This document shows, piece after piece, positions 3,623 through 46,164 of a stretch of 64,000 bases of DNA (positions are counted from its first letter, which is position 1; every line of letters begins with the position of its first letter). The DNA comes from Eutreptiella sp. 'Long Island Sound 2002' (taxonomy: Eukaryota; Euglenozoa; Euglenophyceae; Eutreptiales; Eutreptiaceae): NCBI GenBank assembly GCA_964036045.1, contig OZ038384.1:98691600-98755599 (forward strand), read 5' to 3'. The position numbers were made by a program, and so were the translations under genes. The notes under the pieces were generated by a model. The model did no database searches. It had not been told where the DNA came from and saw nothing but the letters and a program-made list of their open reading frames with translations.

Positions 3623-4012
3623 TCACAGGACGCGCCCGGAGGCCGCCTCACAGCTCTCCTCGACCCACCGCGACACATCGTGGGCGAGGGACTCCGCGGC
3701 GAAGGCGTGCTCCTGGCCGTCCGGCAGGAGGAGCACGTCGAGGGGCAGCGCCAGGCGGCTGGTGCTCGTGATCAGCGCCCCGGCCCATGCGCCCACGTCG
3801 CGCACGTCCGGGGGTGACAGCCGCACGGGCACGCCGTGGCGCGCGCACTGCTCCAGCACAACCTTGCGCACACTGCCCTTCAGGATGCCGCTCTCGGCCG
3901 TCTGCAGCGTCCCGTCACGCAGGACCGCCATGAAGTTGCTCGATGCGCCCTCCAGAATCCGCGAGCTGCCGGGCTCCGTCAGGAGCACCTCATTGACGTC
4001 CGGTGCCACAGC
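3623..4012 (-). CDS. class IV aminotransferase, C-terminal exon
   Basis: Last exon of a fold-type IV PLP enzyme (the branched-chain aminotransferase / D-aminotransferase / aminodeoxychorismate lyase superfamily). It begins after TTATTTAG, preceded by a pyrimidine-rich stretch, and runs 129 codons to a TGA at 3,625-3,623. Visible family landmarks are NEVLL near the start, LEGASSN (the conserved E and N around the cofactor), ILKGSVRKVVLE, GVPV, and ITSTSRLALPLD, whose Ser/Thr residues match the PLP-phosphate-binding turn. The end VEESCEAASGRVL resembles the usual C-terminus. The upstream partner is the exon at 42,501-43,090. The first codon (GCT) is in phase 0, matching the end of that exon. 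The substrate cannot be told from sequence; amino-acid or aminodeoxychorismate chemistry is possible. Confidence 0.85.
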   Translation of the reverse strand, partial: AVAPDVNEVLLTEPGSSRILEGASSNFMAVLRDGTLQTAESGILKGSVRKVVLEQCARHGVPVRLSPPDVRDVGAWAGALITSTSRLALPLDVLLLPDGQEHAFAAESLAHDVSRWVEESCEAASGRVL

Positions 4013-4148
4013 CTAAATAAGGGGCAGTTCAAACAGACAGGCGACCCTGGCAGACACCTGTTGCCCTGCTGGGTAGAAGACAAATGACGAAGCAACACCC
4101 AACAAGGGGCAACGACACATTGAGTGCCAAAAGGGGGTAGAGCAGGAT

Positions 4149-4902
4149 ACAATACAATACAATACAATACAATACAATACAATACAATGCAATACAATAC
4201 AATACAATACAATACAATACAATACAATACAATACAATACAATACAATACAATACAATACAATACAATGCAATACAATACAATACAATACAATACAACAC
4301 AACACAACACAATACAATACAATACAATACAATACAATACAATACAATACAATACAACACAACACAATACAATACAATACAATACAATACAATACATTAC
4401 CATACGATACGATACGATACAATACATTACATTACAATACAATAAAACACAATACAATACAATACAATACAATACAATACAATACAATACAATACAATAC
4501 AATACAATACAATACAATACAATACAATACAATACAATACAATACAATTCAATACAATAGAGTACAATACAATACAATACAATACAATACAATACAATAC
4601 AATACAATACAATACAATACAATACAATACAATACAATACAATGCAATACAATACAATACAATACAATACAATACAATACAATACAACACAATACAATAC
4701 AATACAATACAACACAACACAATACAATACAATACAATACAATACATTACCATACGATACGATACGATACAATACATTACATTACAATACAATACAACAC
4801 AATACAATACAATACAATACAATACAATACAATACAATACAATACAATACAATACAATACAATACAATACAATACAATGCAATGCAATGCAATGCAATGC
4901 AA
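4149..4902. repeat. (AATAC)n pentanucleotide satellite
   Basis: About 750 bp of nearly pure AATAC units with AACAC and AATGC variants. A variant block (CATTACCATACGATACGATA and neighbours) occurs at about 4,394 and again at about 4,744, so a 350-bp segment has been duplicated inside the array. Because the period is 5, all frames stay open and code for Y-N-T-I-Q or V-L-Y-C-I strings that are not genes. Confidence 0.95.
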
Positions 4903-5159
4903 TACCACACCACATCACACCACACCACACCACACAACACCACACCATACCACACAACACCACACCATACCACACCGTACCACACCATACCATACCATAC
5001 CACACCACACCATACCATACCACACCGTACCACACCACACCATACCATACCATACCATACCATACCATACCATACCATACCATACCATACCATACCATAC
5101 CATACCATACCATACCATACCATACCATACCATACCATACCATACCATACCATACCATA
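4903..5159. repeat. (TACCA)n pentanucleotide satellite
   Basis: ACCAC and ACCAT variants grade into about 120 bp of pure CCATA units that end exactly where the first minisatellite begins. The same pentamer forms the 3' tail of the retroelement at 17,603-17,680 and 42,196-42,299, so this block may be the tail of a further upstream copy. Confidence 0.93.
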
Positions 5160-6708
5160 GACCCCATGCCGCGCCCATGCGCGGCACCGCACCGCGCCCC
5201 TGCGCAGCCCCACGCTGCTGCGCCCCTGCGCAGCCCCGCGCTGCGCCCCTGCCCTGCGCAGCCCCACACTGCTGCGCCCCTGCGCCGCCCCACGCTGCTA
5301 CGCCCCTGCGCCGCACCACGCTGCACCCCTGAGCAGCCCGGCGCTGCGCCCCTACTCAGCCCCACGCTACGCCCCTGCGCAGCCCCACGCTGCTGCGCCC
5401 CTGCGCCGCCCCACGCTGCTACGCCCCTGCGCCGCACCACGCTGCACCCCTGAGCAGCCCGGCGCTGCGCCCCTACTCAGCCCCACGCTACGCCCCTGCG
5501 CAGCCCCACGCTGCTGCGCCCCTTCGCGGCCCCATGCCGCGCCCCGGCGCAGCCCCACGCTGCTGCGCCCCTGTGCAGCCCCACGCTGCTGCGCCCCTGC
5601 ACGGCCCCTTGCCGCGCCCCCGCGCAGCCCCTTGCCGCGCCCCCGCGCAGCCCCGGGCTGCGCCCCTGCGCAGCCCAACGCTGCTGCGCCCCTACGCAGC
5701 CCCCCGCTGCGCCCCATTCGCGGCCCCACGCTACGCCCCGGCGCAGCCCCGCGCTGCTACGCCCCTGCGCAGCCCCACGCTGCTACGCCCCTGCGCGGCC
5801 CCGCGCCGCGCCCCTTCACGGCCCCATGCCGCGCCCATACGCGGCTCCACGCTGCGCCCCTGCGCAGCCCCACGCTGCGCCCCTACGCAGCCCCACGCTG
5901 CGCCCCTGCGCAGCCCCACGCTGCTGCACCACTCCACGGCCCCTTGCCGCGCCCATGCGCGGCCCCGCGCTGCGCCCCTGCGCAGCCGCACACTGCTGCG
6001 CCCCTGCGCCGCCCCACACTGCTGCGCCCCTGCGCCGCACCGCGCTGCGCCCCTGCGCAGCCCCACGCTACGCCCCTACTTAGCCCCACGCTGCGCCCCT
6101 GCGCAGCCCCACGCTGCTGCGCCACTTCACGGCCCCATGCCGCGCCCCGGCGCAGCCCCACGCTACTGCGCCCCTGCGCAGCCCCACGCTGCGCCCCCGC
6201 GCAGCCCCACGCTGCGCCCCTGCGCAGCCCAGCCCCCCACACCGCGCCCCTGCGCGGCCCCATGCCGCGCCCATGCGCGGCCCCACGCTGCACTCCTGCG
6301 CGGCCCCACGCTGCGCCCCTGCCCAGCCCCGCGCTACGCCCCTGCCTAGCCCCACGCTGCGCCCCTGCGCAGCCCCACACTACTGCGCCCCTGCGCAACC
6401 CCACGTTATGCCCCTGCTCAGCCCCGCGCTGCGCCCCTGCGCAGCCCCACGCTGCGCCCCTGCTCAGCCCCACGCTACTGCGCCCCTGCACGGCCCCATG
6501 CCGCGCCCATGCGCGGCCCCGCGCTGCGCCCCTGCGCAGCCCCGCGCCGCGCCCCTGCGCGGCCCCATGCCGCGCCCATACGCGGCCCCACGCCGCGCTC
6601 CTCCGCGGCCCCACGCTGCACCCCTGCGCGGCCCCACACTGCTGCGCCCCTGCGCGGCCCCACACGGCTGCGCCCCTGCGCGGCCCCACGCTGCGCCCCT
6701 GCGCAGCC
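5160..6708. repeat. 23/26-bp minisatellite array, first block
   Basis: Tandem units of 26 bp (GCGCAGCCCCACGCTGCTGC then GCCCCT) and 23 bp (the same without one GCT), with C/T and G/A variants. About 60 units. Each holds the 8-bp palindrome CTGCGCAG and a GCAGC...GCTGC mini-inverted repeat. The units lack stop codons in all six frames, which gives spurious Ala/Pro/Arg-rich or Gly/Arg/Ala-rich ORFs. On the minus (intron-sense) strand they are G-rich. Confidence 0.95.
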
Positions 6709-7285
6709 CGGGCAGGGAGCAACCCCCCCCCCCCCCCTCGAGGAACGGCCGCCCTCGGGAGCCCTCGCCCAGCCCCCGGGGGCCTCTCGGGGTTCGCCCG
6801 CGAGCCCGCCCGGCCCTTCCACGCCCCCCCTCACCAGCCGCAGCCCAGAGGCCCGCCCGGCCTCCCCCGCGCCGGCCCACAACCACCAGGGACCCGGGCC
6901 CCGGAGCCCCGGTGCCCAGCCCCGCCCGCCCCCCCGGTATCCCTCCGGCGGGGCCCGTCCCGGTCCGGTTCGGCCGCGAGGGGACGGCGTGGCGCTCCCC
7001 CCCGCCTCCACCAGGATTCGCCCCCGTGGATGATGCTCGGCGGGATTCGTCCCCGCCGAGCGGGGTGCGGGCGCCACCGCTGACCGCGGCCCCCCCGACA
7101 CCTCGAGCGCCCCGGGCTCCCCGGCCGACTATGGCCAGCCCCGGCCGCTCCTCCGCCCGGTCGGCCGCACGGTGACGCTCTGCGGCTGAGCTCACCGCAC
7201 CCCCGTCCCCCTCGCGCGCGCACCCACCCACCAGCCCACAGCCCCCCCCCCCCCCCCCCCCAGCGTGCACGCCGTGCCCCCACCG
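6709..7285. repeat. dispersed ~575-bp repeat X, copy 1
   Basis: A non-minisatellite segment set inside the minisatellite, from CGGGCAGGGAGCAACC to GCACGCCGTGCCCCCACC. A near-identical copy is at 17,976-18,550. The two differ by scattered substitutions and by the length of their two poly(C) tracts. No coding potential and no clear terminal repeats; identity unknown. Confidence 0.85.
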
Positions 7286-7535
7286 CCCCTACGCAGCCCC
7301 ACGCTGCGCCCCTGCGCAGCCCCGCGCCGCGCCCCTGCACGGCCCCACACTGCTGCGCCCCTGCGCCGCCCCGCACGGCTGCGCCCCTGCACCGCACCAC
7401 GCTGCGCCCCTGCGCAGCCCCTACGCAGCCCCACGCTGCGGCCCTGTGCGGCCCCACGCTGCTGCACCCCTGCGCGGCCCCACGCTGCTGCGCCCCTGCG
7501 CGGCCCCATGCCGCGCCCCTGCACGGCCCCACGTT
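7286..7535. repeat. 23/26-bp minisatellite, continuation before the retroelement
   Basis: About ten units resume after repeat X and end at TGCGCCCTTGCCGCTGGT, where the 280-bp repeats of the element begin. The same minisatellite-to-repeat junction, with one or two base changes, occurs at about 41,140. Confidence 0.9.
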
Positions 7536-8640
7536 GCGCCCTTGCCGCTGGTGCCGCAGCCCACAGAGGGGCCCTCATCGGGCGCGCCGGCGCCCTTGCA
7601 CACGCGCCCCCCGCAGGCGGGCCTGCGCGGCGCGCGTGCCCCCGGCGCGCCCGCGGACCCCATGGAGTGGGGCTCTCAGGGCCGCCGCCGACCACCGGCC
7701 GGTCCGCCCGCGCCGCCCCGCGGCCGCCACGGGCCCCGCACCCGCATGGCGCCGCTTCCGCCTCGGCCGCCCGCCGCCACCCACGCGCCCGGCCCAGGCC
7801 TCGGCCCCCAGGCCACGCTTCCAGCTTGCCGCTGGTCCCGCGGCCCGCAGTGGGGCCCGCATCGGGCGCGCCGACGCCCTTGCACACGCGCCCCCCGCAG
7901 CCAGGCCTGCGCGGCGCGCGTGCCCCCGGCGCGCCCGCCGACCCCATGGAGTGGGGCTCTCAGGGCCACCACCGGCCGCCGGCCGGTCCGCCGGCCGGTC
8001 CGCCCCCACAGCCCCGCGACCGCCACGGGCCCCGCACCCGCAAGGCGCCGCCTCCGCCTCGGCCGCCCGCCGCTACCCACGCGCCCGGCCCAGGCCTGAA
8101 CCCCCCGGCCGGCCGTGCCGCGCGGGCTCCCGCACACGGGACACAGGGACGGGCACCAGCAACGTGCGCGCCTCCGCGGCCCCGTATTGCGCCCTTGCGC
8201 GGTCCCACGCTGCGCCCCGGCGTAGCCACGTGCTGCGCGCCAGCGCAGCCCCGCGCTGCGGCCCTTCCGCAGCCGCTGCGCCCCAGCGCAGGAATCGACC
8301 ATACATAATCCCCGCCCCCTCCACCCCCTTACTCCACCTCCGCACAGGACGTAGCCCCCTCCCCTGTGGCGGGGGAGCGGCGGCTGGAAGCAAGGGGAAC
8401 CGGGGCCCCGCAGGTCCCCGGACAGGTGGTCCCTCCATCCCGCCCCCCATCCCGCCTCCGTTTCGCACAGATGCGCGCGCCCTCCCCCCACGGCGGGGGA
8501 GGGAACCAGGGTCACACGGGCAGGTGGTCCCTCTCACAGCGACGCGCGCCCCCTCCCCCCCCAGACAGAAGGCGGCACCCCCCCCCCCCCCCCTCGGTCG
8601 TCAGCGGCGCCCGCTTGGCCAGCGTAGCGCCGACCGCTCT
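7536..8640 (+). repeat. left flanking direct repeat of the retroelement
   Basis: Starts with two copies of a ~285-bp unit (GCCGCTGGT at about 7,543 and 7,828), then a GACACAGGGACGGGCACCAG block, then a segment from about 8,310 (CCACCTCCGCACAGGACGTA) to a poly(C) run and CTCGGTCGT. It matches 41,140-42,110 over nearly its whole length and matches the 3' region 16,095-17,520 more distantly. After about 8,640 it passes into the ORF1 leader. Confidence 0.85.
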
Positions 8641-8830
8641 GCATGCCGGAGCCTCCGGGCCCTGAGCGCTTGCCTCGGCTTCTCCCTTTCTCCCGCCCGC
8701 CCACCCACCCCGACCAACCCCCCCCACCCTCATCACGCACCACGACTGGCGCCCACAGCCGTCAACGGACCTCCCACCCCCCGGCACGCCGTGTGTCAGA
8801 CCCTCCCTTGCTCCGCTCCCCACAGGCACC

Positions 8831-10924
8831 ATGGCACACCCATTCTCAGCTCTGTCCCCTGACCTCCAGCGCGAACAGTTGACGGCGGCCGACGCCTGGC
8901 CCCTCCTGTCCATCGCCCTGGACTCCCAACAACCCCCACGCCTGCTGGCCTCCGGGCGCCACATGCCGGCGAATGTGGACGTCCTCTCCATCCCCCTCGC
9001 CGGCTCCTCCATCGAAGCCAGCCCCCTCCTCTGGTGGTTCGCCTTCACCGACAGCTCACCGAGAACGAGATCTCCCTCCTCACCACACACCACGACGCCT
9101 CGTGGCTCCCCTACGCCTCCTGCATGAGCGCCCTCACCGACTGGGGCGCTCGTGCCTCCACCCTCGACCAGGCCACTCTCGCCTCGGCCGCCCTCGCCCA
9201 CATTTCCCCCTTCTCCCCGACCTCCCCCCCTCCATCCCCTTCCGCCGCCTCCTGGACCTCCTCGCCTTCGAGGAGGCCATCAAGCCCAAGGTCGCCCGGG
9301 TCGCCCTGCTCCACTGGCTAGCGACCTGGGCGGCCCAGCAGACCGGCTCCCGGCTAGCCTACCCCCCCCTCAGCTGCGTCTTCGACCCCGCCAGCCCCCA
9401 CGTCCGTGTCCCCGCCCCTTGCCCCCTGTCAGCCCAACGGTGGTACACCGAGTTGCACCATCGGAAGGATGATGGTTCAATTCGCACCCCCAACATCTCC
9501 ACCGCCATCACCGCAGCCGCCCGCCGCGCTAACCCGCAGGCAGAAGACCCTCCTGCGGGGCCCGGTGTCCCCGCCCCCGCCGCCGCCCCTGCACCCCCTA
9601 ACGCTTCGCAACCCTTGTCCCTGCTTCCCCCCCGTCCCCAGCCCCCTCAGCCGGCCGCACCACCCCCGTCAGACTGGGAGACACTCTTCCAGGCTGGCCC
9701 AGCCCCGAGCTCCCAGGACACACTGTCCTTACTCGACGGCCTCTCCTCCGTCCCCGAGGCCGACGCCCACCACACGGCCATGTGCATTGTGGCCATGGGC
9801 AAGAACTGCCACCTGCCCCCCAAGACCGTGCAGCACCTCTCGGTCTCCACGTCCACCGCCCGCCTGGTGCTCGCCGCCAAGGGTGCCTGGCACTCCTGCC
9901 CCGACCTCCACAAGCCCACCCTCCGCCTCCACCTCAACAAGCTCCTCACCCTGGTCTCCCAACGGTACGGAGCCGCCGCCTCCTCCGCGGCCTCCCTGCC
10001 TGCCCTCCAGGCCATCCAGCCCCTCATCACAGCCGCTCAGGCCCATGCCGACACTCCCTGGCTGACAGCGGCCTTCACCATCGCCAGCGCCCCCTCCTTC
10101 CCCATAGAGGCCTACCAAGACCTCCAACACGTCTCCTCCGCCGACACCCTCCGCGCAGCCATCGCACGGCTGTGTGGCCGTCTATCCACCCCGGCCCAGT
10201 TCCAGGAGCTCATCTCCTACACCAAAACTGCCCTCCCCCCCGCTCCACGGCGGACCTGGACTGGTTCCGCCTTGGCTCCTCCGCACCGCCAGCGCCCTCC
10301 CTGCAAGCCCCTGGCGCCGCCGCCCCGCCCGCGCCACTCTCCGCCCCACCCCTCCTCGGCCAGCCCCCCCTCCCGGGCGCCCCCGCGCCCTCCGCCACCG
10401 GCGCCACCCCCGCCTCCTCGGTCCCCACCTTCGCCCCCGTCGGCTCCTCGCCAGCCACCACCGGCATCGTCCGCGTCTCAGGCCTCCGCCTAGGCCCGCA
10501 CCCCTCCATGGCAGTCACCCTCACCCACAACCTGCAGACCGTCGTGTACGTCACTGACGGCGACGCCCGCCGCGGACACGCGTTCGCCTCCATCGCCCCC
10601 GCCCTGCACACCTCCCTCTTCGCCTCGCTGCCCACGCGCGTCATCCAGCACGACGAGGGCTGGTCCCTTACGGTCCAGGGCAGACGGGACGATGGGCAAC
10701 CTTGGCACGCCCCCGCCGCCACACTCAACACCCCCCCCTCCCACCGCCCGCCCGTCCCGGGCGACCCTCAGCCCCGTCCCACCAAACGCAGCCGCCAGCA
10801 ATCACCCCCCCGTTCCTCCCCCCGACGCTCCCCGAGGCACCATGGCCGCACAGCGCCCTCGGCCCCCACGTCAGGCAGGTCAGTCCGCGGCGCCATGTTC
10901 CCCAGTGCCCGCAGACACAACTGA
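8831..10924 (+). pseudogene. retrotransposon ORF1 protein, frameshifted
   Basis: Likely start ATG at 8,831 (MAHPFSALSPDL...). The coherent protein changes frame near 9,050 (from FAFTD to QLTENEISLL), near 9,225 (to FRRLLDLLAFEEAIKPKVARV) and near 10,245 (to DLDWFRLGSS), then runs to a stop at 10,924. The first part is helical and ordered, the middle is Pro/Ala-rich, and the C-terminal region is basic (TKRSRQQSPPRSSPRR), as expected of a nucleic-acid-binding ORF1p. No RRM or zinc knuckle was recognised. The start and end frames agree, so the shifts probably represent small indels in one original ORF of about 700 codons. It would have packaged the element RNA. Confidence 0.7.
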
Positions 10925-11799
10925 CTCGCCCTGCCGGACACTCTCCCCGCCTCCAGTGCTCCCGACCTCCCGACCCTGGCCTGGGCGACCTTCCTCGCCT
11001 CCCACTTCCCCCGCCCACTCGACGCCCACCGCGCCGGGGCTGACCTCCTCTCCGGCCCGAAGCCCCGTCCCCAATCCCACGCCCGGGGGACCCCCCCCCG
11101 CGCACCCGCTACACCACCGGCCTCCGCCCCCCGTATATGCCTTCACTGCGGCACGCTGCGGCGCCCGGCCCTCACGCACTGCCCCGTGTGCACACACTCT
11201 GCTGACCTTCTCCCCCTTGGCCTCCCCCCGGCCGCCAACCTCCCCCCGGGCCCCCTCCGAGACCTCCTGCACGCCGCCCAGGTCTCCACGTCGCTACCCC
11301 CCTCGCTCCTCGCCTCCGCCCTCCCCACAGTGTGCGGTTGGCTCGCCTCCTTCCCCCGCCAGCGCCGCGACCCCTCCTTCTGGATCACCCCTCCCCTGCA
11401 CGTGGACGCCAAGTGGACCGCCTTCTGGGACACCGCCCACTTGCCGTCAACCCCCCTCCCCCCGTCCCCAGCGTATACTCGCTCGTCAGGCCCGACCTCA
11501 GCGTGTGCGCTACACCCCGCCCTCCCCGACGCCCCACTCGTCACCTCCTCCGCTTGCCCCGACTGTGGACGCCCCAGGCTTCACACCGCCTTCGTCGACC
11601 TCCCCACATCGCCGACCGACCACTGGCCTCACTTCTTCTGCACCTCCCCCCACAAAGCCCCGCCCGTGTGCACTCGTGACACCGCCGCCCGTTGTGTGGT
11701 CGGCTTCCAGGGCATGCTACTGCCCGGGGCTGTCCCCGTCTGAGCCATCCCCTGGGCCACCCCCTGCGCCCCCCCTCCCGACCGCCTCCTCCAGCCGAC

Positions 11800-12560
11800 C
11801 CCCGCCTTCGTCCTCTCCCTCCCCGACCCCAGTGACCAGGCGTCCACCCCCCTCCGCGACACAGCCCTCACCTTTCTCACGCACAGCTGGGGCGGCATCG
11901 CCGGCCAAGTCTCCCTCGCCCGCACCTGGCTCGAGGCCCTGTCCCCCGACGTGGTCGCCGAGCAGGAACTCTGGGACTTGGCCGCGGCCCGCCCCGCCCT
12001 CCCACCGCGGTACGAGGCCCACTACAGCACCGCATCCGGCCAGGGCTCAGGCCTCCGCACGGCCTGGCTCCGGTCCCTCCGCGCCCCCTCCTAGCCCGCC
12101 GACCTCGTCTACGACAGCCCGCACTGGATTGCCTCCACGGTCCCCCTCTCACTAGGGGGCCGTGCCCTCCTGTTCAACGCCCACCTCCCCCCACGCCTCT
12201 CGTACTCCGAGTGGGTTTCCGAGGTCAAGCTCATGAACCACCTCCGCTCCTGCATACGTCCCGACCTGTGTGTCCTCCTGGGCGACCTCAACAGCACGGG
12301 AGCCCCAGGCACCCCCCTGGCCTCCGCGCTCGGTGCCCTAGGCCCGCTCTCGGCCTGGCACCGCCTGGTCCCCCCAGCCACTCCCACCAACTTCACCACC
12401 CGCCACGGCTCCCCCCGGTCCACCGCCATCGACCACATCTTCGCCACCGGTCCCATCGCCTCCCACACTCACCACGTCCTCCCCTGCCACACCTCACACG
12501 CCATGGTGCTGGCGCAGGTCACCCTGCACCACCGCTCCTGCGACGCCCACTCGTGGCGTC
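11800..12560 (+). pseudogene. APE-type endonuclease domain of ORF2
   Basis: Landmarks in order are FLTHSWGGIAG, SPDVVAEQELWD (the metal-binding E), LLGDLNST (GDLN motif), STAIDHIFATG (the S-x-IDHIF motif) and SHAMV (the final His). These are the catalytic signatures of apurinic/apyrimidinic-like endonucleases that nick target DNA for LINE integration. An in-frame TAG at 12,092-12,094 interrupts the domain. Confidence 0.85.
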
Positions 12561-13299
12561 TGTTCCGATGGCGCCTGGCAACTATCGAGGACATGGACTC
12601 CCTCTCAGCCGCCCTTGACCTGGCGTGGGGCTGGCTCCTTACCCCCTCCCTCCCCGACCACTACATCGCCGCCCACCACTCCCTCGCGCACCAGCTGCTC
12701 CCGCACCCGCCTGACACCCCCACACTACTACAGTCCCTGGCCCGGTTCACCTTTCCCCTCTCCACACATGACCTCGCCGCCCAGTCCACTGCCCTCCAGG
12801 AGGCATCGGCCGCCCGCGGCTACGTCTCTCGCGCTGCCGTCCTCTCCTCCCCCTCCATCACCTCCGCCACTCGCACAGTCCTCCGGCTGCCCTCCCCTCC
12901 CCTGGAACCGTTCCACGGCATCCTCCCCCACCCGGGGGCCACCCTCACGACCCGCGAGGAACGGCTCGCCGAGGTCACGGCCCAGTCCCGATCCCAGACG
13001 GCCAACCGGCACGTCTCCGTGGACCACGCCTTCTTCGCCGCCCGCTGCACCCCGGACCCCTGGCTCCCCCTCCTACACCCGCCCACCGATCTCACTCCCC
13101 CCCTACTCCGCGACGCCCTCCGCGCGAACGCCCGACCAGAATCCCCCGCCTCCCTCCGGGCGTACGCCCTCACCCGCCAGTCCCCCCCCCTCATCACCAC
13201 CGCCTCCCTCGCCCACCGCCGCATGGGCAAGCGCTCCCTCGCCGTGTCCACTGACAACGTGGCACGCGCAGCGCTCTTCCGCAGCGGCGGAGGCGTCCA

Positions 13300-14535
13300 C
13301 CTCGAATTGCTACACCTCCTCCTCCAGCTCGAATCCGGCACCCCGGGCGTCTCCAACGAGACCGTCCGCTACGGCCTCTACAAGGGGAAACCCACCAAGC
13401 CACTCCCCCGGCACCTCACACGCTCCTTCCGCCCCGTCGACGTGGAGTCGGGCGTCTCCGGCGCAGCATCCGGCATCGCCACGACCCGCCTAGCCGCCGA
13501 TCTCGAGCTCACCTCCACCTACACCCCCGCCTCCTTCGCCTACCGCCCAGGCCACTCCGCCCTCGGCCTCGCCCTCGTGGCCCGCGCCGCCGCCTACACA
13601 GCCCTCTCCACCCACGGCACCTGCGCCATCTGCGACTGGGACGAGTCTGACGCGTACCTCAGGGTACTGCGCCAGGACAACTCCCGCCTCTGCTCCCGCC
13701 TCCGCGCCACGTGGGACTTTGGCCCCTGGGCAGACGGCTTCTACAGCCGCCTGGTCATCCGCGTGGCCACTCGCGAAGGGTTCGCCCACCCCTTCAGTAC
13801 CGAGGAGGGGGGCAACCAAGGCGACGGGTTCGCCCAACTCCACTACCAGGCCCCCAGCCTGGTCATCACCAGGGCCATGCGCCCCAACACTTCCATCACC
13901 CTCCCCCTCACCATCCCCGGCCACTCAGCGTCCCTCCCCGCCACCCACCTCTCGTAAAGCGACGACCGCCGCTTCATCACCCCCTCCCTCACGGACTGGC
14001 AGCCATGGCCACTGACTGCCGCGAGTGCTCTCGCCGCGCCGGCCGCATCATACACCCCGACAAGCAGGAGTTCTCCCTCATCGACTCCCGCCCAGGCCGG
14101 CCCACCCTCGTCACAGCCGACGTCCCGCAGCACACCGGCACCACAACCACCGCCCCCCCGGAAGTCGTCGGCATCCCCATCCTCCCCGAGCTCCCCCTCC
14201 TCCGCGTCATCAACAAGTCCCGCGCGTCCCTCGAGCGGGCGCGCAAGGCCAGCCGCAACCACGAGGCCTGCCACATGCTCCAGCTCCGCTCCCTGCACGC
14301 CTTCGGCCTCTCCCCCCTCGACTACGTCACCTCGGGCGTCCTCGTCCGCCCCCCCTCCCTCCGCCCCCATCAGACCGCCATCAACAATGCATACCGCCAC
14401 GCCCTCCGTCTGCCCCCCCGGGCACACTCGGCCTTCCTCCACCTCCCCCTCCAGCACGGCGGTCCCGGCGCCCCCCTCCTAGCGTACCGGGCCCCCCTCA
14501 ACCTCCTCCGCACTTACCTCCGCGCCTCTTGGGGC
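13300..14535 (+). pseudogene. reverse transcriptase domain of ORF2
   Basis: Recognisable motifs are FRPVDVESG (motif 2 area), FAYRPGHSA (in the place of GFRxGRST), CDWDESDAYLRV (motif A with the catalytic D), EGGNQGDGFAQLHY (motif B, GxxQGD) and SDD (motif C, about 13,961-13,966). A TAA at 13,955-13,957 stands two codons before the DD, where a Y is usual. A frameshift follows at about 13,985-14,005, after which the thumb region continues (RRAGRIIHPDKQEF...). Motifs A and B are divergent from common L1 and RTE types. Confidence 0.85.
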
Positions 14536-14539
14536 CCGA

Positions 14540-15403
14540 AACACCCTCGCAGTAGCCGCCACGGCGTCCCTCATCTCCCCGCGCCGCCCCACCCCCTGGC
14601 TCACCGAAGGTCCCGCCCTGGCACAGGCGCTCGCCCCCCTTGACATCACCGTCCACCTCCTCCCCTCCCCCCACGTACGCCCCGCCCCGCAGCACCACAC
14701 CGGCTCGCTGGCCCCCCTCCGCTCCCTCCCCTATGTCGTGGTCGCGTGCGACGGCAGCCAAGAGGGCACCCGCCTCGGCGCCGGCTTCCTCCTCTGGCAC
14801 CCCCACCACGGCACTCTCTACCGCGGCTGGCTTGGCCTCCACGCCCTCGCCGGCCACTCCACCGACGCAGAGTGGATCGCCAAAATAGCCGCCATGTTCG
14901 CCCTCCGCGGCTGGTCCGGCGAAGCCCTCTTCGCCTCAGACTCCACCGCCTCCCAACTCTGCGACCTCACCCGCGGCCCGCCCCCCTCCTCTATCCTCTC
15001 CATCCCGTACCGGGCGGCCCTCCTCTCCACCTTCTTCCGCATGCACGAGGCCTGGCTCCCCGCGCAACGCGACTCCGGCTCCGCCAGCCACCTCGCCACC
15101 CTCAACGCCGAGGCCGACAGCCTAGCCCGCCGCGGGCTCCACGCCGCCTCCCCGTGGACCCTCCCCTGGTCCGCACTCTTCCACGGCCGCATCGTGGTGC
15201 TCCGTGAGGGCGCACTCTTCCTTAGCCCCGCGCGCGCCGCAGAGGCAGCGTATGCGGCCACCACCGCCCGCACCCACGCGTTGCACCTCCGGCCCCTGCC
15301 CCCAAGCTGGTCCTCCCACCTACTCCGCCTCGCGTATGAACGCGCCGAGATCCCGGCGCTGGCCCTCCACCGCATCATGCACCTCCGGCTACTGCACTCC
15401 TAG
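14540..15403 (+). pseudogene. RNase H domain of ORF2
   Basis: The acidic D-E-D-D set is visible: VACDGSQEG (D near 14,750), DAEWIAK (E near 14,868), FASDSTAS (D near 14,940) and LNAEADSLAR (final D near 15,116). The spacing fits an RNase H1-like fold that removes RNA from the cDNA hybrid. The frame is open until an in-frame TAG at 15,401. Confidence 0.82.
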
Positions 15404-15427
15404 GACCACCCCCCCGGCTACGGAGGC

Positions 15428-15900
15428 ATGACGTGCCCCTTCTGTCACCGCCCCTACCCGGACTCCGCCGCCCACCTCCAGTACCACTGCCCCCCCCACT
15501 ACGCCCTGCAGTTACTCCTCGCGTGGCCCTGTTCACGCACCCGCCCATCCTGGGCAACCACTGCCGGCCACTCCCCCCACCTCGTCACACCTTTAGAGCT
15601 CCGCACGGCCACCACCGCAGTGTACCTCTCCGAGCACCTCCCAGCCGCCCCGCGACCCGGCCCCCCGACGCAGTTGGGGTTCAGTCTGCTCGGCATGTGG
15701 CACTCCACCTCCCCCCACGGCGCCCCCCCTCTGCTGGACAGCGCCGGCCGGGAGGAACTCCTCCGCAAGCTCCTCTCCACCCTCAGCACGACGCACACGT
15801 CGCTAGCGTCACTCCTCCGCCGTGCCCCCTCCCACGTCACCGCCCCGCCCCCCCCCTCCCGCCGCACGTCGCCACGCCGCCCTGCACCCAGCCCCACACA
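15428..15900 (+). pseudogene. C-terminal CCHC zinc finger of ORF2
   Basis: CPFCHRPYPDSAAHLQYHC gives C-x2-C-x10-H-x4-C, the zinc motif typically found at the C-terminus of LINE ORF2 proteins. It is in the same frame as the RNase H domain but downstream of the TAG at 15,401. The frame closes at about 15,920; the continuing protein (HSIALVWLLRHCATWRL) lies in another frame. Confidence 0.75.
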
Positions 15901-16094
15901 CTGCGCCACAGCATCGCCCTAGTCTGGCTCCTCCGCCATTGCGCCACTTGGCGCCTCACAGTAGACCGCCGGCCTATGGTCCCGCCCCCCCCGGCGCCAC
16001 TCCCGGGGCCGCACCCGGCCCACGTCGTGTTCACCCCCACGTCGCGGGCCGCGGACATCCTCCCACTCCTCGCCGCCACCCCCCCCAGGCAACG

Positions 16095-17575
16095 CATACT
16101 GCTTGCCGCCAACCCCTCGGTCCTCAGTGAGGTCCTCATCGGGCACGCCGATGCCCTGAACGTGCGCCCGCTGCTGCCCGACCTGCACGTTGCGTACGCC
16201 CCGGCACGCCCGTCGACCCCTCTGTGTGGGACTCTCAGTGAGGCCACCGGCCACCGGCCGGCCCGCACGCACCGCCCCGCGCTCGCCTCGGGCACTCGTG
16301 CCCGTGGACGCCGCTACCCAAGCGCCCGGCCCCGGCCTCAGCCCCCGAGCAGCGCTTCCTGCCAGCCGCAGGTCCCACGGCCCGCAGGGGGCCCCCGACA
16401 GGCACGCCGACACCCTTGCGCGTGCGCCCCCCGCAGCTTGGCCTGCACGGCGCGCTCTCCCCCGGCACGCCCTCCGACCCCACTGCGTGGGGCTATTGGG
16501 GCCTCTGCCGACCGCCGGTTGGGCCGCCCGCGCCTCCCAGCGACCGCCACGGGCCCCGCACCCGCACGGCGCCGCCTCCGCCTCGGCCGCCCGCCGCTAC
16601 CCATGCGCCCGGCCCCGGCCTCAGCCCCCAGGCAACGCAACCAGCTTGCCGCAGGTCCCTCGGCCCGCGGAGGGGCCTGCACCGGGCACGCCGACGCCCT
16701 TGCGCACGCGCCCCCGGCAGCTTGGCCTGCAGGACGCGCCCTCCCCCGGCACGCCCACCGACCCCACTGTGTGGGGCGCTCGGGGCCACTGCCGACCGCC
16801 GGCTGGACCGCCCGCACCCCCCGCGACCGCCACGGGCCCCGCACCCGCATGGCGCCGCGTCCGCCTCGGCCGCCCGCCGCTACCCATGCGCCCGGCCCGG
16901 GCCTCGACCCCCCGCCGGCTGTGCCGCGCGGCCTCCCGTTAGCAGGACACAGGACAGGCACCAGGGGACAGCACCTGAACCGAACACGACACGCCAGCAC
17001 CTGTATACCCATGATCGTGCTCTTGTGCTCCCGCCCTTGTGCCCTCCCTCCCCATTGACCGACGCGCGCGCGCGCCCGTACTACCGGGGACGAGGCGGCC
17101 ACACCACAGCACAAGCAAAGGTGACTAGGCGCCAACAGAGAGCAACTCCCAGGCCTCCCCTCGCCCCCGTAGAAGGCTAGAAGCACGGGCCCAGCGCCCC
17201 CGGCCACGCCACGGCCGCACACGAGGAACGGCCACCGCGGCGGGATGTTCGGGCAAGGCGCGGAGTGTCCGTGGACCCGGGCGTGCCTTCCCCACCCCAA
17301 GGTCACCGCCCCGCCCTCCACCCCCACCCACAGCCGCTTCGCACAGGACGAGTAACTCTCCCCCCGCGAGACGGGGGAGGGCTCCAGGGTAACTTCCACA
17401 GGTGGCCCCACCCTCCTCCACGCGCCCCCCCCCCCCCCACTCCACGCCCCCCCCCCCCCCCCCTCGGTCGTTGTCGGCACACGCCCGGCCAGCGTGACGC
17501 CGGCCGACTGCTCCCTTGCGCCCTGCCCAGGGAGAGCGTGTCTGGCAATTTCTCCCGCCGGCACGTGCTGGGTGC
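16095..17575 (+). repeat. right flanking direct repeat / 3' UTR of the retroelement
   Basis: About three diverged ~280-bp units (GGTCC followed by C/T-CGGCCCGC at about 16,373 and 16,653, and an older copy from 16,095), then about 530 bp, then poly(C) tracts and CTCGGTCGTTGTC. Nearly the same sequence precedes ORF1 and forms 41,140-42,170. The oldest unit still reads as the end of ORF2. Confidence 0.8.
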
Positions 17576-17680
17576 CATCACAACAACAACAACAACAACA
17601 ACATACCATACCATACCATACCATACCATACCATACCATACCATACTATACGATACCATACCATACCATACCATATAGCG
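17576..17680 (+). repeat. retroelement 3' tail: (CAA)n then (TACCA)n
   Basis: The GGCACGTGCTGGGTGCC block at about 17,560 is followed by about eight CAA units and then about fifteen TACCA units. The identical arrangement at 42,173-42,299 shows that the two simple repeats belong to the element, like the short tandem tails of several LINE clades. Confidence 0.85.
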
Positions 17681-17975
17681 GAGTCCCCCCCGGCGAATCC
17701 GAGGTTCTTCCTCGAAGGGGCCCACGAGCCCAAGGGACGCCACCGGGTTTTTTCGGCCAAGCCGGACGGAGCTCCCACCGGCGACCCCCCCCGCATGGGT
17801 GGGTGCACACGATAACCGCCAGCCCCCCCCCCCCCCTCAGCCCCCCCACAAAGGGACTCCGGCGCCGAGGGTTGGGGATACAGTCCCATGCCGCGCGGCC
17901 ATGAATCGACATGGCCCTACACCGGGCGATACACGCCCTCCCCCCCCCTCGCTCAAGAGGGGCCCCCGTCGTCCC
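17681..17975. other. anonymous 295-bp spacer
   Basis: GC-rich sequence between the retroelement tail and repeat X copy 2. Contains a poly(C) run near 17,826. Nothing coding and no match to other parts of the window. Confidence 0.5.
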
Positions 17976-18550
17976 CCGGGCAAGGAGCAACCCCCCCCCC
18001 CCCCTCAAGGAACGGCCGCCCTGGGGAGCCCTCGTCCAGCCCCCGAGGGCCTCTCGGGGTTCGCCCCCCGAGCCCGCCCGGCCCTTCCACGCCCCCCTCA
18101 CCAGCCGCAGCCCAGAGGCCCGCCCGGCCTCCCCCGCGCCGGCCCACAACCACCAGGGACCCGGGCCCTGGAGCCCCGGTGCCCAGCCCCGCCCGCCCCC
18201 CCGGTATCCATCCAGCGGGGCCCGTCCCGGTCCGGTTCGGCCGCGAGGTGACGGCGTGGCGCTCCCCCCCGCCTCCACCAGGATTTGCCCCCGTGGATGA
18301 TGCTCGGCGGCATTCGTCCCCGCCGAGCGGGGTGCGGGCCCCACCGCTGACCGCGGCCCCCCGACACCTCGAGCGCCCCGGGCTCCCCGGCCGACTTTGG
18401 CCAGCCCCGGCCGCTCCTCCGCCCGGTCGGCCGCACGGTGACGCTCTGCGGCTGAGCTCACCGCACCCCCGTCCCCCTCGCGCGCGCACCCACCCACCAG
18501 CCCACAGCCCCCCCCCCCCCCCCAACGTGCACGCCGTGCCCCCACCGCCC
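17976..18550. repeat. dispersed ~575-bp repeat X, copy 2
   Basis: Near-identical to 6,709-7,285, from CCGGGCAAGGAGCAACC to GCACGCCGTGCCCCCACC. Here it is flanked by anonymous DNA, not minisatellite, so it is an independent unit and not a minisatellite variant. Confidence 0.85.
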
Positions 18551-37700: not shown

Positions 37701-40700
37701 CCCCGCTGCGCCCCATTCGCGGCCCCACGCTGCGCCCCGGCGCAGCCCCGCGCTCCTACGCCCCTGCGCAGCCCCACGCTGCTGCGCCCCGCGCCGCGCC
37801 CCTTCACGGCCCCATGCCACGCCCATACGCGGCCCCATGCTGCACTCCTGCGCGGCCCCACGCTGCGCCCCGGCCCAGCCCCGCGCTGCCCCCCTGCGCA
37901 GCCCCGCGCTGCTGCTCCCCTGCGCGGCCCGACGCTGCTGCGCCCCTGCGCAGCCCCGCGCTGCGCCCCTAAGCAGCCTCACGCTGCGCCCCTGCGCAGC
38001 CCCACGCTGCTGCACCCCTCCACGGCCCCAGGCAGCGCCCATGCGCGGCCCCGCACTGCGCCCCTGCGCAGCCCCACGCTGTTGCGCCCCTGCGCAGCCC
38101 CACGCTGCGCCCCTGCGCAGCCCCACACTGCTGCGCCCCTGCGCCGCCCCACACTGCTGCGCCCCTGCGCCGCACCACGCTGCGCCCCTGCGCAGCCCGA
38201 CGCTGCGCCCCTACTCAGCCCCACGTTGCGCCCCTGCGCAGCCCCGCACTGCTGCGCCCCTTCACGGCCCGGTGCCGCGCCCCGGCGGAGCCCCATGCTG
38301 CTGCGCCCCTGCGCAGCCCCACGCTGCGCCCCGGCGCAGCCCCACGCTGCTGCGCCCGTGCGCAGCCCCGCCCCGCGCCCCTACGCAGCCCCACGCTGCG
38401 CCCCTGCGCAGCCCAGCGCTGCTGCGCCCCTGCGCAGCCCCACGCCGCGCCCTTGTGCGGCCCCATGCCGCGCCCATGCGCGGCCCCACGCTGCACTCCT
38501 GCGCGGCCCCACGCTGCGCCCCTGCGCAGCCCCACGCTGCGCCCCTACTCAGCCCCACACTGCTGCGCCCCTGCGCAGCCCCACGCTGCTGCGCCCCTTC
38601 ACGGCCCCATGCCGCGCCCCGGCGCAGCCCCACGCTGCTGCGCCCGTGCGCAGCCCCACGCTGCTGCGCCCCTGCGCAGCCCCGCGCCGCGCCCCCGCGC
38701 GGCCCCACGCTGCGCCCCTGCGCAGCCCAGCGCTGCTGCGCCCCTGCGCAGCCCCACGCTGCGCCCCTGTGCGACCCCATGCCGCGCCCATGCGCGGCCC
38801 CACGCTGCACTCCTGCGCGGCCCCACGCTGCGCCCCTGCCCAGCCCCGCGCTGCGCCCCTGCCCAGCCCCACGCTGCGCCCATGCGCAGCCCCACGCTGC
38901 GCCCCTGCGCAGCCCCACACTACTGCGCCCCTGCGCAGCCCCACGTTACGCCCCTGCTCAGCCCCGCGCTGCGCCCCAGCGCACCCCCATGCCGCTGCGC
39001 CCCGACACAGCCCCCCCACCACTGCGCCGCCCCACACAGCTGCTCTGCGCAGCCCCACGCTGCTGCACCCCTGCGCAGCCCCACGCTGCTGCGCCCCTGA
39101 CTACACCTTTGCGCAACGCACAACCCAAGCGCAGCCCCACGCTACGCCCCTCCGCAGCCCCGCGCTGCTGCGCCCCTACGCAGCACCACGCTGCTGCGCC
39201 CCTGCGCAGCCCCACGCTGCCCTCCAGCGCAGCCCCACGCTGCTGCGCCCCTGCACAGCCCCATGCTGCTGCGCCCCTGCGCAGCCCTGGCTGCCGCGCC
39301 CCTGCGCAGCCCCATGCTACTGCGCCCCTGCGCAGCCCCGGGTTGCTGTGCCCCTGCGCAGCCCCACGCTGCTGCTCCCCTGCGCGGCCCCACGCTGCTG
39401 CGCCCCTGCGCAGCCCCGCGCTGCGCCGCGCTTCGCCCCTGCGCGGCCCCAAGCTGCGCCCCTGCGCAACACCGCGCTGCGCCCCTGCGCAGCCCCGCAC
39501 TCCTACGCCCCCGCGCCGTCCCAAACCGTTGCGCCCCTACGCAGCCCCATGCTGCGCCCCTGCGCAGCCCCACGCTGCGGCGCCCCTGCACGGCCCCATG
39601 CCGCGCCCCGGCGCAGCCCCACGCTGCTACGCCCCTGCACAGCCCCACGCTGCTGCGCCCCCGCGCCGCGCCCCTGCACGGGCCCACGCTGCGCCCCTGC
39701 CCAGCCCCGCGCTGCGCCCCTGCGCAGCCCCGCGCTGCTGCTCCCGTGCGCGGCCCCACGCTGCTGCGCCCCTGCGCAGCCCCGCGCTGCGCCCCTGCGC
39801 AGCCCCACACTGCTGCGCCCCGGCGCCGCCCCACACTGCTGCGCCCGTGCGCCGCACCACGCTGCGCCCCTGCGCAGCCCCACGCTGCGCCCCTACGCAG
39901 CCCCACGCTGCGCCCCTGCGCAGCCCCACGCTGCTGCACGCCTCCACGGCCCCATGCCGCGCCCGTGCGCGGCCCCGCGCTGCGCCCCTGCTCAGCCCAA
40001 CGCTGCTGCGCCCCTGCGCGGCCCCGCGCTGCGCCCCTGCGCAGCCCCACACTGTTGCGCCCCTGCGCCGCCCCAAACTGCTGCGCCCCTGCGCCGCACC
40101 ACGCTGCGCCCCTGCGCATCCCCACGCTGCGCCCCTACTCAGCCCCACGCTGCGCCCCTGCGCAGCCCCGCGCTGCGCCCCTGCGCAACCGAACGCTGCT
40201 GCGCCCCTGCGCCGCCCCACACTGCTGCGCCCCTGCACCGCACCACGTTGCGCCCCTGCGCAGCCCCTACGCAGCCCCACGCTGCGCCCCTACGCAGCCC
40301 CGCGCTGCGCCCCTGCGCAGCCCCACGCTGCTGCGCCCCTGCGCAGCCCCACGCTGCGCCCCTGCGCAGCCCCACGCTGCTGCGCCCCTGCGGGGCCCCG
40401 CGCCGCGCCCCTGCAAGGCCACTTGCCGCGCCCTTGCGCAGCCCCACGCTGCGCCCCTACGCGGCCCAACGCTGCTGCGCCCCTACGCAGCCCCCCGCTG
40501 CGCCCCATTCGCAGCCCCACGCTGCGCCCCGGCGCAGCCCCGCGCTGCTACGCCCCTGCGCAGCCCCACGCTGCTGCGCCCCTGCGCGGCCCCGCGCCGC
40601 GCCCCTTCACGGCCCCATGCCACGCCCATACGCGGCCCCACGCTGCACTCCTGCGCGGCCCCACGCTGCGCGCCGGTCCAGCCCCGCGCTGCGCCCCTGC

Positions 40701-41139
40701 GCAGCCCCGCGCTGCTGCTCCCGTGCGCGGCCCCACGCTGCTGCGCCCCTGCGCAGCCCCGCGCTGCGCCCCTGCGCAGCCCCACGCTGCTGCGCCCCTG
40801 CGCAGCCCCTACGCAGCCCCACGCTGCGCCCCTACGCAGCCACGCGCTGCGCCCCTGCGCAGCCCCACGCTGCTGCGCCCCTGCGCCGCCCCACACTGCT
40901 GCGCCCCTGCACCGCACCACGCTGCGCCCCTGCGCAGCCCCTACGCAGCCCCACGCGGCGCCCCTGCGCGGCCCCACACTGCTGCGCCCCTGCGCTGCCC
41001 CACACGGCTGCGCCCCTGCACCGCACCACGCGGCGCCCCTGCGCAGCCCCTACGCAGCCCCACGCTGCGCCCCTGCGCGGCCCCACGCTGCTGCGCCCCT
41101 GCGCGGCCCCATGCCGCGCCCCGGCGCAGCCCCACGCTG
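19770..41139. repeat. 23/26-bp minisatellite array, 21.4-kb main block
   Basis: Roughly 850 units of the same 23/26-bp family as 5,160-6,708. Both unit lengths are 2 modulo 3 and no unit carries a stop in any frame, so giant ORFs arise (for example 9.1 kb on the plus strand from 23,988). These are artefacts. A higher-order structure is clear: a variant run with CACGCTTCGCATCTGCGCAG recurs at about 22,110, 22,840, 24,805, 25,620, 26,770, 27,515, 28,600, 29,270, 30,035, 32,210, 34,430 and 37,370. Another with TTTGCGCAACGCACAACC recurs at about 21,400, 21,600, 23,205, 23,395, 36,185 and 39,105. Confidence 0.95.
33540..39410. repeat. 2.94-kb tandem duplication inside the minisatellite
   Basis: Variant patterns at about 33,540-36,500 reappear at about 36,500-39,410 with an offset of 2,944 bp (for example GCCCTGGCGGAGCCCCACGA at about 33,830 and 36,774). 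The offset falls to 2,921 bp near the right end, which indicates one 23-bp unit lost in the second copy. The two copies are almost identical, so the duplication is recent or homogenised. Confidence 0.85.
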
Positions 41140-42299
41140 CGCCCTTGCCGCTGGTCCCGTAGCCCACAGAGGGGCCCTCATCGGGCGCGCCGGCGCCCTT
41201 GCACACGCGCCCCCCGCAGCGTGGCCTGCGCGGCGCGCGTGCACCCGGCGCGCCCGCCGACCCCATGGAGTGGGGCTCTCAGGGCCGCCGCCGACCACCG
41301 GCCGGTCCGCCCGCGCCGCCCCGCGGCCGCCACGGGCCCCGCACCCGCATGGCGCCGCTTCCACCTCGGCCGCCCGCCGCCACCCACGCGCCCGGCCCCG
41401 GCCTCGGCCCCCGGGCCACGCTTCCAGCTTGCCGCTGGTCCCGCGGCCCGCAGTGGGGCCCGCATCGGGCGCGCCGGCGCCCTTGCACACGCGCCCCCCA
41501 CGGCCAGGCCAGCGCGGCGCGCGTGCCCCCGGCGCGCCCGCCGACCCCATGGAGTGGGGCTCTCAGGGCCACCGCCGGCCGCCGGCCGGTCCGCCCACAC
41601 CGCCCCGCGACCGCCACGGGCCCCGCACCCGCATGGCGCCGCCTCCGCCTCGGCCGCCCGCCGCTACCCACGCGCCCGGCCCAGGCCTGAGCCCCCCCGC
41701 CGGCCGTGCCGCGCGGCCTCCCGCACACGGGACACAGGGACGGGCACCAGGGGATAGACCATACATAGTCCCCGCCCCCTCCACCCCCCTTACTCCACCT
41801 CCGCACAGGACGTAGCCCCCTCCCCTGTCGCAGGGGAGTGGCGGCTGGAAGCAAGGGGAACCGGGGCCCCGCAGGTCCCCGGACAGGTGGTCCCTCCATC
41901 CCGCCCCCCATCCCGCCTCCATTTCGCACAGGTGCGCACGCCCTCCCCCCACGGCGGGGGAGGGAACCAGGGTCGCATGGGCAGGTGGTCCCTCTCACAG
42001 CGACACGCGCCCCCTCCCCCCCCCAGACAGAAGGCGGAACCCCCCCCCCCCCCCTCGGTCGTTGTCAGCACACGCCCGGCCAGCGTGACGCCGGCCGACT
42101 GCTCCCTTGCGCCCTGCCCAGGGAGAGCGTGTCTGGCAATTTCTCCCGCCGGCACGTGCTGGGTGCCCTAACAACAACAACAACAACAACAACAACATAC
42201 CATACCATACCATACCATACCATACCATACCATACCATACCATACCATACCATACCATACCATACCATACCATACCATACCATACCATACCATACCATA
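41140..42299 (+). mobile_element. solo flanking repeat of the retroelement, with tail
   Basis: Begins at the same minisatellite junction as 7,536 (TGCGCCCTTGCCGCTGGT), has two ~285-bp units, the CACCTCCGCACAGGACGTA segment matching 8,310-8,590, a poly(C) run, then GTGACGCCGGCCGACTGCTC and GGCACGTGCTGGGTGCC as at 17,465-17,578. It ends in (ACA)n(TACCA)n. It therefore equals the left flank joined to the 3' tail with all coding sequence missing, the arrangement expected if the two direct repeats recombined. Confidence 0.8.
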
Positions 42300-42490
42300 T
42301 ACTAATACCAATACCAATACCAGTACGAATACCAATACCAATACTAATACTAATGCCAATGCCAATGCCAATACCAATAACATTACTAATACCAATACCA
42401 ATACTGATACCATTACCAATACCAATACCAATACCAGTACTAATACCAATGCCAATACTATTACCAATACTAATACCAATACCACTACCA
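42300..42490. repeat. degenerate (TACCAA)n repeat next to the splice donor
   Basis: About 190 bp of 6-bp-like units (CCAATA, TAATAC, TGCCAA and similar) continue from the pure TACCA tail and stop about 9 bp from the exon. In the sense of the host gene they read GGTATT and GGTAAT, so the donor GAG-GTATAT resembles a repeat unit. Confidence 0.85.
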
Positions 42491-42500
42491 ATACATATAC

Positions 42501-43090
42501 CTCTTCCAGTCGCTTGCGCTCTGCGACCCATGCCGAATCCTTCGCCGCCGCGTTCGAGCGCGGCGGCCCGGCGACCGCCGCCTTGACGGGCGGCGCGGGC
42601 CGGCCGCGCAGGGGGCTGCGTGCGCGTGCAGCACCGGCGCGCCCTCGCTCCACGTCACGAGGCAGCAGAGCTTCAGCTCCGCTTCGTACGCTGGGAACGC
42701 CTCGCGGTGCAGGAGCAGCGCCCGCCGCACGCACGGGAGCAGGCACGCCCGCATGGCCTCGGGGTGCGTCAGCTCCCACACCTCCGGAGGGGCGGGTGCG
42801 CCCTCCTCCTCCGCGAGCATGAGGCGCACGCTCTCCGCCAGGCGCCGCACGTGGAGGTCGAGCTCGAGGACGCTGTGGCGCTGGAACGTGCGCGCGTTGG
42901 TGTACGCGCCGCGCGGCAGGCGGCTCAGCCAGGCATCGGAGTTGGGGGGGGTCGCGGCCACGTCCTCTAGGCCCCGGACGCTCACAGCGCCCACCGAGGC
43001 GGCGTCCCGCAGCACAGCGGTGCTCAGCAGCCGTGCGCCCGTCCGCCCGCAGGGGCGCCGCAGGGCCCCAGAGAAGGCCCAGAGTGCCAT
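42501..43090 (-). CDS. class IV aminotransferase, N-terminal exon with frameshift
   Basis: Starts at ATG 43,090-43,088. The first ~45 residues (MALWAFSGALRRPCGRTGAR...) are rich in R, A, S and L without acids at first, like an organelle transit peptide. The enzyme begins near residue 58 with LPRGAYTNARTF and HVRRLAESVRLM, both typical of the plant/algal family. In a five-C run (42,615-42,611) the frame changes: up to there the protein reads HAHAAP, and the family sequence continues one base out of frame as LRGRPAPPVK and PPRSNAAAKDSAWVAERKR, with the probable PLP-binding Lys in AAAKDS. One extra C would make it continuous. The exon ends GAG before a GT donor, phase 0. With the exon at 3,623-4,012 the product would be about 326 residues, normal for the family. 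Either a homopolymer sequencing error or a real pseudogene mutation. An upstream acceptor (CTCTTCGCAG near 43,107) leaves open a further 5' exon. Confidence 0.8.
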
Positions 43091-43302
43091 CACAGACCCG
43101 AGAGTCAGTCCATCTGACACTGCGAAGAGATCAGAGGCAGGGCAGTCAAGCCAAGCGCGATGGAGGGCGGCCAACGGCGGGTTCAGGGCAACCGATGGCG
43201 GTGGGAGGGCAACCGACGGCAGTTTGACGGTCACGGGTGCGGTCCCTGGCGGCGGTCCTTACCACAAACAGAGGCAACCTACAGGGGGGGCTGGGGGTTC
43301 TA
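43091..43302. other. 5' flank of the aminotransferase gene with GCGGTTGG-type repeats
   Basis: Contains three imperfect ~22-bp units (GGCGGGTTCAGGGCAACCGA and relatives, about 43,168-43,235). No TATA-like or other promoter element that I would defend was seen. A pyrimidine stretch ending CGCAG on the minus strand near 43,107 could be a 3' splice site. Confidence 0.5.
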
Positions 43303-46062: not shown

Positions 46063-46164
46063 GAGGTGGGCACATTGCCTACAGGCATGCATTTTTAGTA
46101 AAATTGGTAATTCTTCCTTTTTGGTAGGGTCGTGTAATTTTTTAATTTTCGTGGTAAACGCGTG

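Follow-up and report, generated by a model that had tools for sequence, protein, structure and literature searches.

How do the two halves of what reads as a single enzyme gene come to stand tens of kilobases apart, and what built the DNA between them? We asked this of Eutreptiella sp. 'Long Island Sound 2002', in a 64,000-nt stretch (the window) at 98.69 Mb of contig C7 in the 2.28-Gb assembly, where a class IV aminotransferase-like gene appears to be interrupted by a 38,488-bp intron (4,013-42,500, minus strand; GTATAT...TTATTTAG, phase 0). Both exons lie on the minus strand. Exon 1 (43,090-42,501), recognised by homology, begins with ATG and ends at the donor GAG|GTATAT; exon 2 (4,012-3,623), directly preceded by TTATTTAG, encodes the C-terminal part of Pfam PF01063 and closes with TGA. 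These coordinates and GT-AG borders are those of a first-pass annotation of the same DNA, which had also read the order of aminotransferase motifs across the joined exons correctly. With an X placed at a frame change in exon 1, the joined reading scores 65.7 bits against PF01063 (cut-off 28.5) and spans profile positions 3-219 of 223, which places it in class IV; exon 2 by itself scores 49.4 bits. A protein search found six proteins, including the window's own open reading frame (ORF; P0001, on a 549,549-bp contig) and a sole named protein, from Allomyces; the best non-self match (P0002) is 44% identical and gap-free across the exon junction. Lysine 184, within AAAKDS, is conserved in 6/6 aligned rows and pairs in the alignment with the lysine in VKNLQW of a transaminase whose structure is solved, a site that we take to be the catalytic lysine position of class IV aminotransferases. 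At the 49 columns invariant in five relatives, the query keeps 45, carries X at one and differs at three. Nine NCBIfam substrate-subclass models matched weakly, every one far below its cut-off, and the N-terminus of the protein looks like a mitochondrial presequence.

The first-pass annotation had named a second nearby copy of either exon as an outcome that would undo a single gene. None was found by tblastn of both protein halves against the window, nor in a whole-genome search with the joined protein, whose 29 scored candidates gave seven rows: three for exons of the window, three for exons of a paralog on C20 and one for a remote match on C456. A PF01063 profile search of the genome yielded eight matches, including exon 2 of the window. 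A randomly placed exon 2 would lie downstream of exon 1, on its strand and no more than 39 kb away, with a probability of ~1e-5 (39 kb / (2 x 2.28 Gb)).

The C20 paralog, in the same genome, shares with the window gene its protein family, intron site, phase 0 and GT-AG borders. Its intron (GAG|GTGCTG...CACCAG|GCA) measures 1,735 bp, the window intron being ~22 times as long, and the junction residues (RKILE|ATQGSDVNE in the paralog, RKRLEE|AVAPDVNE in the window) put the two sites at the same position within one codon, with matching residue totals. Because both paralogs carry an intron at this site, the site is probably older than the gene duplication, and the paralog serves as independent evidence that the window junction is a real splice site. 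Conserved position and GT-AG borders are both as expected of a conventional intron. A crude duplex test of pairing between the intron ends (5' 300 nt with 3' 1,150 nt) gave −156.0 against −147.1 for shuffles (standard deviation 5.4), and 5 of 60 shuffles did as well, so the end-pairing typical of euglenid nonconventional introns is not supported. Given the nearly end-to-end PF01063 match, the uniqueness of the exons in these searches and the paralog's intron at the same place, the two exons are most likely one gene, and the first-pass proposal of a span of about 39.5 kb gains support. The paralog differs further in having an additional upstream intron of ~5.7 kb with a 63-bp x 54 array; in this intron (L012:1722-6414) the minisatellite is accompanied by two 21-bp arrays.

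Might the halves instead be two messages, each exon separately spliced-leader trans-spliced and the protein made in two pieces? An AG stands upstream of both exons, and by eye we recognised a pyrimidine-rich candidate spliced-leader acceptor 5' of the exon 1 ATG (43,120-43,145, minus strand, ending ...CTTCGCAG); its acceptor-like AG at 43,120, 29 bases from the ATG, would fit the position of a trans-splice acceptor. A split, rearranged succinate dehydrogenase subunit gene, which would be a precedent, is reportedly listed for Euglenozoa. However, exon 2 begins mid-domain, with its first Met codon at residue 28 of 129, exon 1 terminates in a donor, and in the paralog the exons that carry the two halves are separated by 1.7 kb. 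Euglenids do trans-splice, according to the available text of PMC11170887, but we regard two separate messages as highly improbable here and proceed with a single gene.

That gene is not open as read. Exon 1 is 590 bases long (3n+2) and does not form one open frame: GAYTNARTF...VLHAHAA lies in frame 0, over roughly the first four fifths, and PPVKA...AAAKDS...RKRLEE in frame 2, the switch falling between 42,634 and 42,593. The single joined reading offered by the first-pass annotation passes over this change of frame in silence, and its claim that the junction is phase 0 from either side holds in the AAAKDS...RKRLEE frame, the upstream part of exon 1 being in the other. Since the homologous frames of exon 1 contain no in-frame stops and 45 of the 49 invariant columns are kept, the frame change may stem either from an error of assembly or from a recent mutation (a young pseudogene), and because of it the gene is best treated as no more than a candidate for a functional aminotransferase. 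A recent pseudogene, with exons left as relics of a gene inactivated by the insertions described below or by the frame change, would be compatible with the intron origin that we propose. The paralog could back up a lost function, and the assembly's three dynein open frames longer than 4,000 aa suggest that base errors in it are not rampant; yet the stop-free frames, the retained columns and the intact splice dinucleotides speak for a living gene, and a single isolated length change also resembles a sequencing error. We consider inactivation a real but rather unlikely prospect.

What, then, fills the intron of this probable gene? All of its parts are given on the plus strand, with element boundaries inferred from repeat junctions. 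An (ATACA)n microsatellite of ~203 copies (4,147-5,159) starts 134 bp from the 3' splice site and is followed by a first mobile-element copy of 12.4 kb (5,162-17,601; left boundary uncertain), antisense to the gene. A (CATAC)n microsatellite (17,602-17,675) separates it from a second copy of 24.5 kb (17,676-42,195), beyond which (CATAC)n and then (ATACCA)n (42,196-42,494) reach the 5' splice site. Copy 1 runs in the order satellite, X, short satellite, Y, Z, broken long interspersed nuclear element (LINE) ORFs, Y', Z' and (AAC)n, and has an additional satellite-X-Y-Z block ahead of its ORFs; copy 2 consists of a head with X, satellite, Y, Z and (AAC)n, and no LINE ORF was recognised in it. Together the two copies, so delimited, occupy 36,960 of 38,488 bp (96.0%), and with the microsatellites >99%, which bears out the earlier statement that more than 95% of the intron is repeat. 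Tandem repeats on their own make up 67.5%, a majority, so the intron counts as satellite-filled. Removing both copies leaves 1,528 bp, which is an ordinary intron length for this genome (1,735 bp in the paralog; medians of 1,353 and 1,174 bp in the dynein gaps described below).

Copy 2 holds a 23-bp satellite array of ~890 units and 21,364 bp (19,785-41,148, plus strand); with further stretches of 1,548 bp and ~262 bp, the latter before Y in copy 1, the satellite totals ~23.2 kb and is G-rich on the gene strand, in agreement with the ~23 kb of G-rich minisatellite first reported. The consensus unit is palindromic, with a 7-bp stem and a 4-nt loop (−13.1 and −14.2 kcal/mol on the two strands), and perfect, non-overlapping hairpins number 245 in the array, compared with an average of 5.9 over 20 shuffles. 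We rejected the G-quadruplex as the main structure: loops of <=7 give 17 motifs against a shuffle mean of 69, and although loops of <=12 give 341 against 143 in shuffles, the hairpin signal is much clearer. A 48-base satellite dimer occurs at 650 exact places in the genome, its reversed control at none. Stretches of 800 bp or more that recur exactly at a 2,944-bp offset, seen as 2.9-kb higher-order duplications, point to recent growth of the array by segments.

The same exact repeats are hard to assemble, and they raise the prospect that the exons are near each other in the cell and that the intervening block of element and satellite sequence was joined wrongly or given a wrong length. The window, however, is free of N, and the exon 1 ORF is listed on the 549,549-bp contig. 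The junction of element end, (CATAC)n and next head is also present in other copies, and an N-free 31-kb array fills a dynein gap elsewhere, though in the same assembly. An artefact of this kind is, in our judgement, improbable, and we take the assembled intron as the object to be explained.

The element belongs to a dispersed family whose 3' end is young. This end (41,752-42,195) has 1,303 candidates in the genome; among the 40 scored, identity is 96-100%, and the match at 100% is the window itself. ORFs of copy 1 score 29.6 bits against Exo_endo_phos (cut-off 24.5), marking an apurinic/apyrimidinic endonuclease (APE)-type domain within 12,095-13,957 of a LINE coding region (8,666-15,922, plus strand) with frame breaks. 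Stretches resembling reverse transcriptase (RT) and RNase H were recognised by eye in that region; for RT, RVT_1 matched below its cut-off in 3/9 relatives, the window's own LINE ORFs being broken. Relatives of one copy 1 ORF comprise 31 proteins on ENA contigs, 53-98% identical over 16-100% of the ORF. The Y-Z block of copy 1 flanks the LINE ORFs on both sides (7,546-8,636 and 16,082-17,675), like a terminal repeat. The window's element was absent from the dynein and paralog stretches compared.

To what sites does this family go? We cut out 30 element loci, the window's own included, and counted their flank classes by script. An (AAC)n terminus is present in 30/30. It is followed by pure (CATAC)n in 15/30 (14/29 without the window's own; 20/30 under a looser rule) and by (TACA)n in three (L037, L047, L053). 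By eye, the other 12 flanks are a single CATAC followed by the head of another element (L044), TA-rich sequence (L039, L049), minisatellites (L035, L046, L050, L051, L055), C-rich or other sequence (L030, L031, L034) and a head that follows directly (L058). In 11/30 another element head begins downstream inside the locus, and the order of element end, (CATAC)n and next head recurs in other copies. Set against a background in which (CATAC)3+ covers 130 of 155,127 bases (a non-random sequence sample), the 15 pure flanks support a probable, if partial, preference for ATAC-type repeats.

As a whole, these observations are in our view probably best explained by an ancestral intron, two antisense element insertions and satellite expansion in one nuclear gene of a euglenid. 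The starting state would have been a conventional intron of ~1.5 kb with an ATAC-type microsatellite interior. Two insertions by a non-LTR (long terminal repeat) retrotransposon family often found in such microsatellites would have followed, both antisense to the gene; the second left a copy without recognisable ORFs, which may have been lost by recombination between Y and Y'. Through tandem duplication, the 23-bp satellite of this second copy would then have grown to 21 kb. The ordinary spliceosome would remove the intron using short terminal signals alone, the long interior staying passive, and the G-rich satellite RNA would fold into strings of hairpins that may shorten the effective distance. 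The order of events, the microsatellite preference as their cause and removal by the ordinary spliceosome are the parts of this account that we infer.

Several points weigh against it. Given the frame change, the gene may no longer function, and selection may not act on its splicing; splicing of the giant intron is in any case a prediction from genomic sequence, and the length of the satellite array comes from a single assembly. Equal intron sites in the two paralogs need one-codon indels on both sides of the junction. Pure (CATAC)n flanks are missing from 15/30 element copies, so either the family's preference for this target is partial or the (CATAC)n might be a component of the element itself. 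Copy 1 ends in a Y'-Z' block only 82-86% identical to other Y-Z blocks, hence of another subfamily, and the X block found just before Y in most examined copies is missing from copy 2; by both marks, the window copies are not standard members of the family. A broader claim, that intron gigantism here is driven by an ATAC-microsatellite-homing retroelement family carrying its own expandable hairpin satellite, is one that we put forward tentatively and do not ourselves favour. If it were true, any intron with such a microsatellite would be a landing pad that takes head-to-tail copies, and introns could gain tens of kilobases while their short terminal splice signals stay intact.

Is the intron then exceptional in its genome? 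The first-pass annotation had said that splicing across 23 kb of G-rich minisatellite RNA would be remarkable; that the intron is singular in its genome is not supported. We treated gaps between adjacent exon matches of dynein profiles as introns when profile ends lay <=10 positions apart and the gap was <200 kb, dropping other pairs; 122/152 first-look candidates were scored for PF12774 and 103/185 for PF08393, two families that sample similar genes. PF12774 (127 rows) gave 72 gaps with a median of 1,353 bp, three of them >=10 kb, two >=20 kb and the longest 32,618 bp; PF08393 (105 rows) gave 53 gaps with a median of 1,174 bp, three >=10 kb, two >=20 kb and a maximum of 45,749 bp. Pooled (n=125), six gaps reach at least 10 kb and four at least 20 kb.

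The contents of these gaps vary. The 32.6-kb gap (G000:C10:49046510-49079127; L015-L018) is 95.8% a 143-bp satellite in ~219 copies (GC 0.405, N=0), and the 20.1-kb gap is 67.0% tandem with 200 N. The 11.8-kb gap is 13.3% tandem, also with 200 N, and gaps of 8.2 and 5.1 kb are 2.1 and 9.1% tandem. In the 45.7-kb gap, four samples totalling 21,752 bases contained no tandem repeats, and two samples of the 21.1-kb gap (12,020 bases) were 9.9 and 12.9% tandem. The idea that giant dynein gaps are always satellite was thus ruled out: of five gaps put through Tandem Repeats Finder (TRF), two are mostly tandem and three are not. Because dynein gaps extend to 45.7 kb with such varied content, giant introns are a feature of this genome and have more than one cause.

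Repeats elsewhere in the window recur in one of these gaps. An 85-bp tandem unit (45,625-46,072, 5.3 copies) belongs to a family that fills ~12.8 kb of the 20.1-kb gap on C23 (L019, L020) at 88% identity, and an AT-rich TTTTTTCGCGGTAA-type repeat stretch (46,107-46,293) is also found there (L020), 80-88% identical. Three minus-strand open frames of the window (45,185-45,775, 54,110-54,448 and 58,505-58,945) look coding by eye, and searching the window for Rfam families and tRNA genes gave no matches.

The host is a photosynthetic euglenid, as judged from rbcL. On the plastid contig C2205 this gene is uninterrupted, and its best identities among the named full-length ones of the 120 matches listed are to Strombomonas acuminata (93%) and S. 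costata (92%), both Euglenaceae, on which ground a plant or green alga was rejected as host. The five highest scores listed go to plant (Musa) proteins, which at 593-791 aa are longer and gain score by their length, with identities of 86-87%. Full-length rbcL matches with open frames of 468-478 aa also occur on nuclear-size contigs (G000:C7:94068808, C2:24394161, C2:94527090), representing either nuclear plastid DNA or assembly mixing. Contig C1, at 201 Mb, exceeds the 121 Mb chromosome maximum given for Euglena gracilis in the accessible part of PMC11252322.

Against known systems, the window intron resembles the GT-AG introns of Euglena gracilis, as the available text of PMC11170887 describes them, in its borders, a C-containing pyrimidine stretch before the AG and intronic tandem repeats. 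It differs in length and donor: that survey of 28,337 introns, based on a genome that its authors call incomplete and fragmented, gives means of ~512-539 bp by group and a maximum of 8,197 bp (GT-AG introns: mean 512.5 bp, longest 8,197 bp, donor GTGTG), whereas the intron here has 38,488 bp and GTATAT. Coding genes with satellite-filled introns are also represented by the Y-linked kl-3 and kl-5 of Drosophila, for which the portion of PMC6508621 at hand reports megabase simple satellites, demonstrated transcription and known RNA-binding proteins; the present intron is 38 kb, has its satellite inside a mobile element and is so far a genomic observation. Repeated insertion inside microsatellites is likewise described for non-LTR retrotransposons in the accessible text of PMC4640811, where the microsatellite-specific families named belong to restriction-like-endonuclease clades, whereas the window element is APE-type and its preference partial. 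Giant satellite introns and microsatellite-targeting non-LTR elements are thus both known, and here they are joined in one euglenid case; no report of a giant satellite intron in euglenids was seen among the open-licence papers listed, most of them viewed by title and abstract opening.

Collectively, the giant intron is in all likelihood real, well explained in its anatomy and not singular in its genome. It offers a dissected route to a giant intron in a 2.28-Gb protist genome, with the probable ancestral state still visible in a paralog, and it suggests that the published euglenid intron maximum of 8.2 kb (available text of PMC11170887; another species, fragmented draft) probably understates what euglenids carry. 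The proposed link between intron length, a mobile element and the satellite that it carries can be tested, and the locus provides a protist setting for a splicing problem known from Drosophila Y genes.

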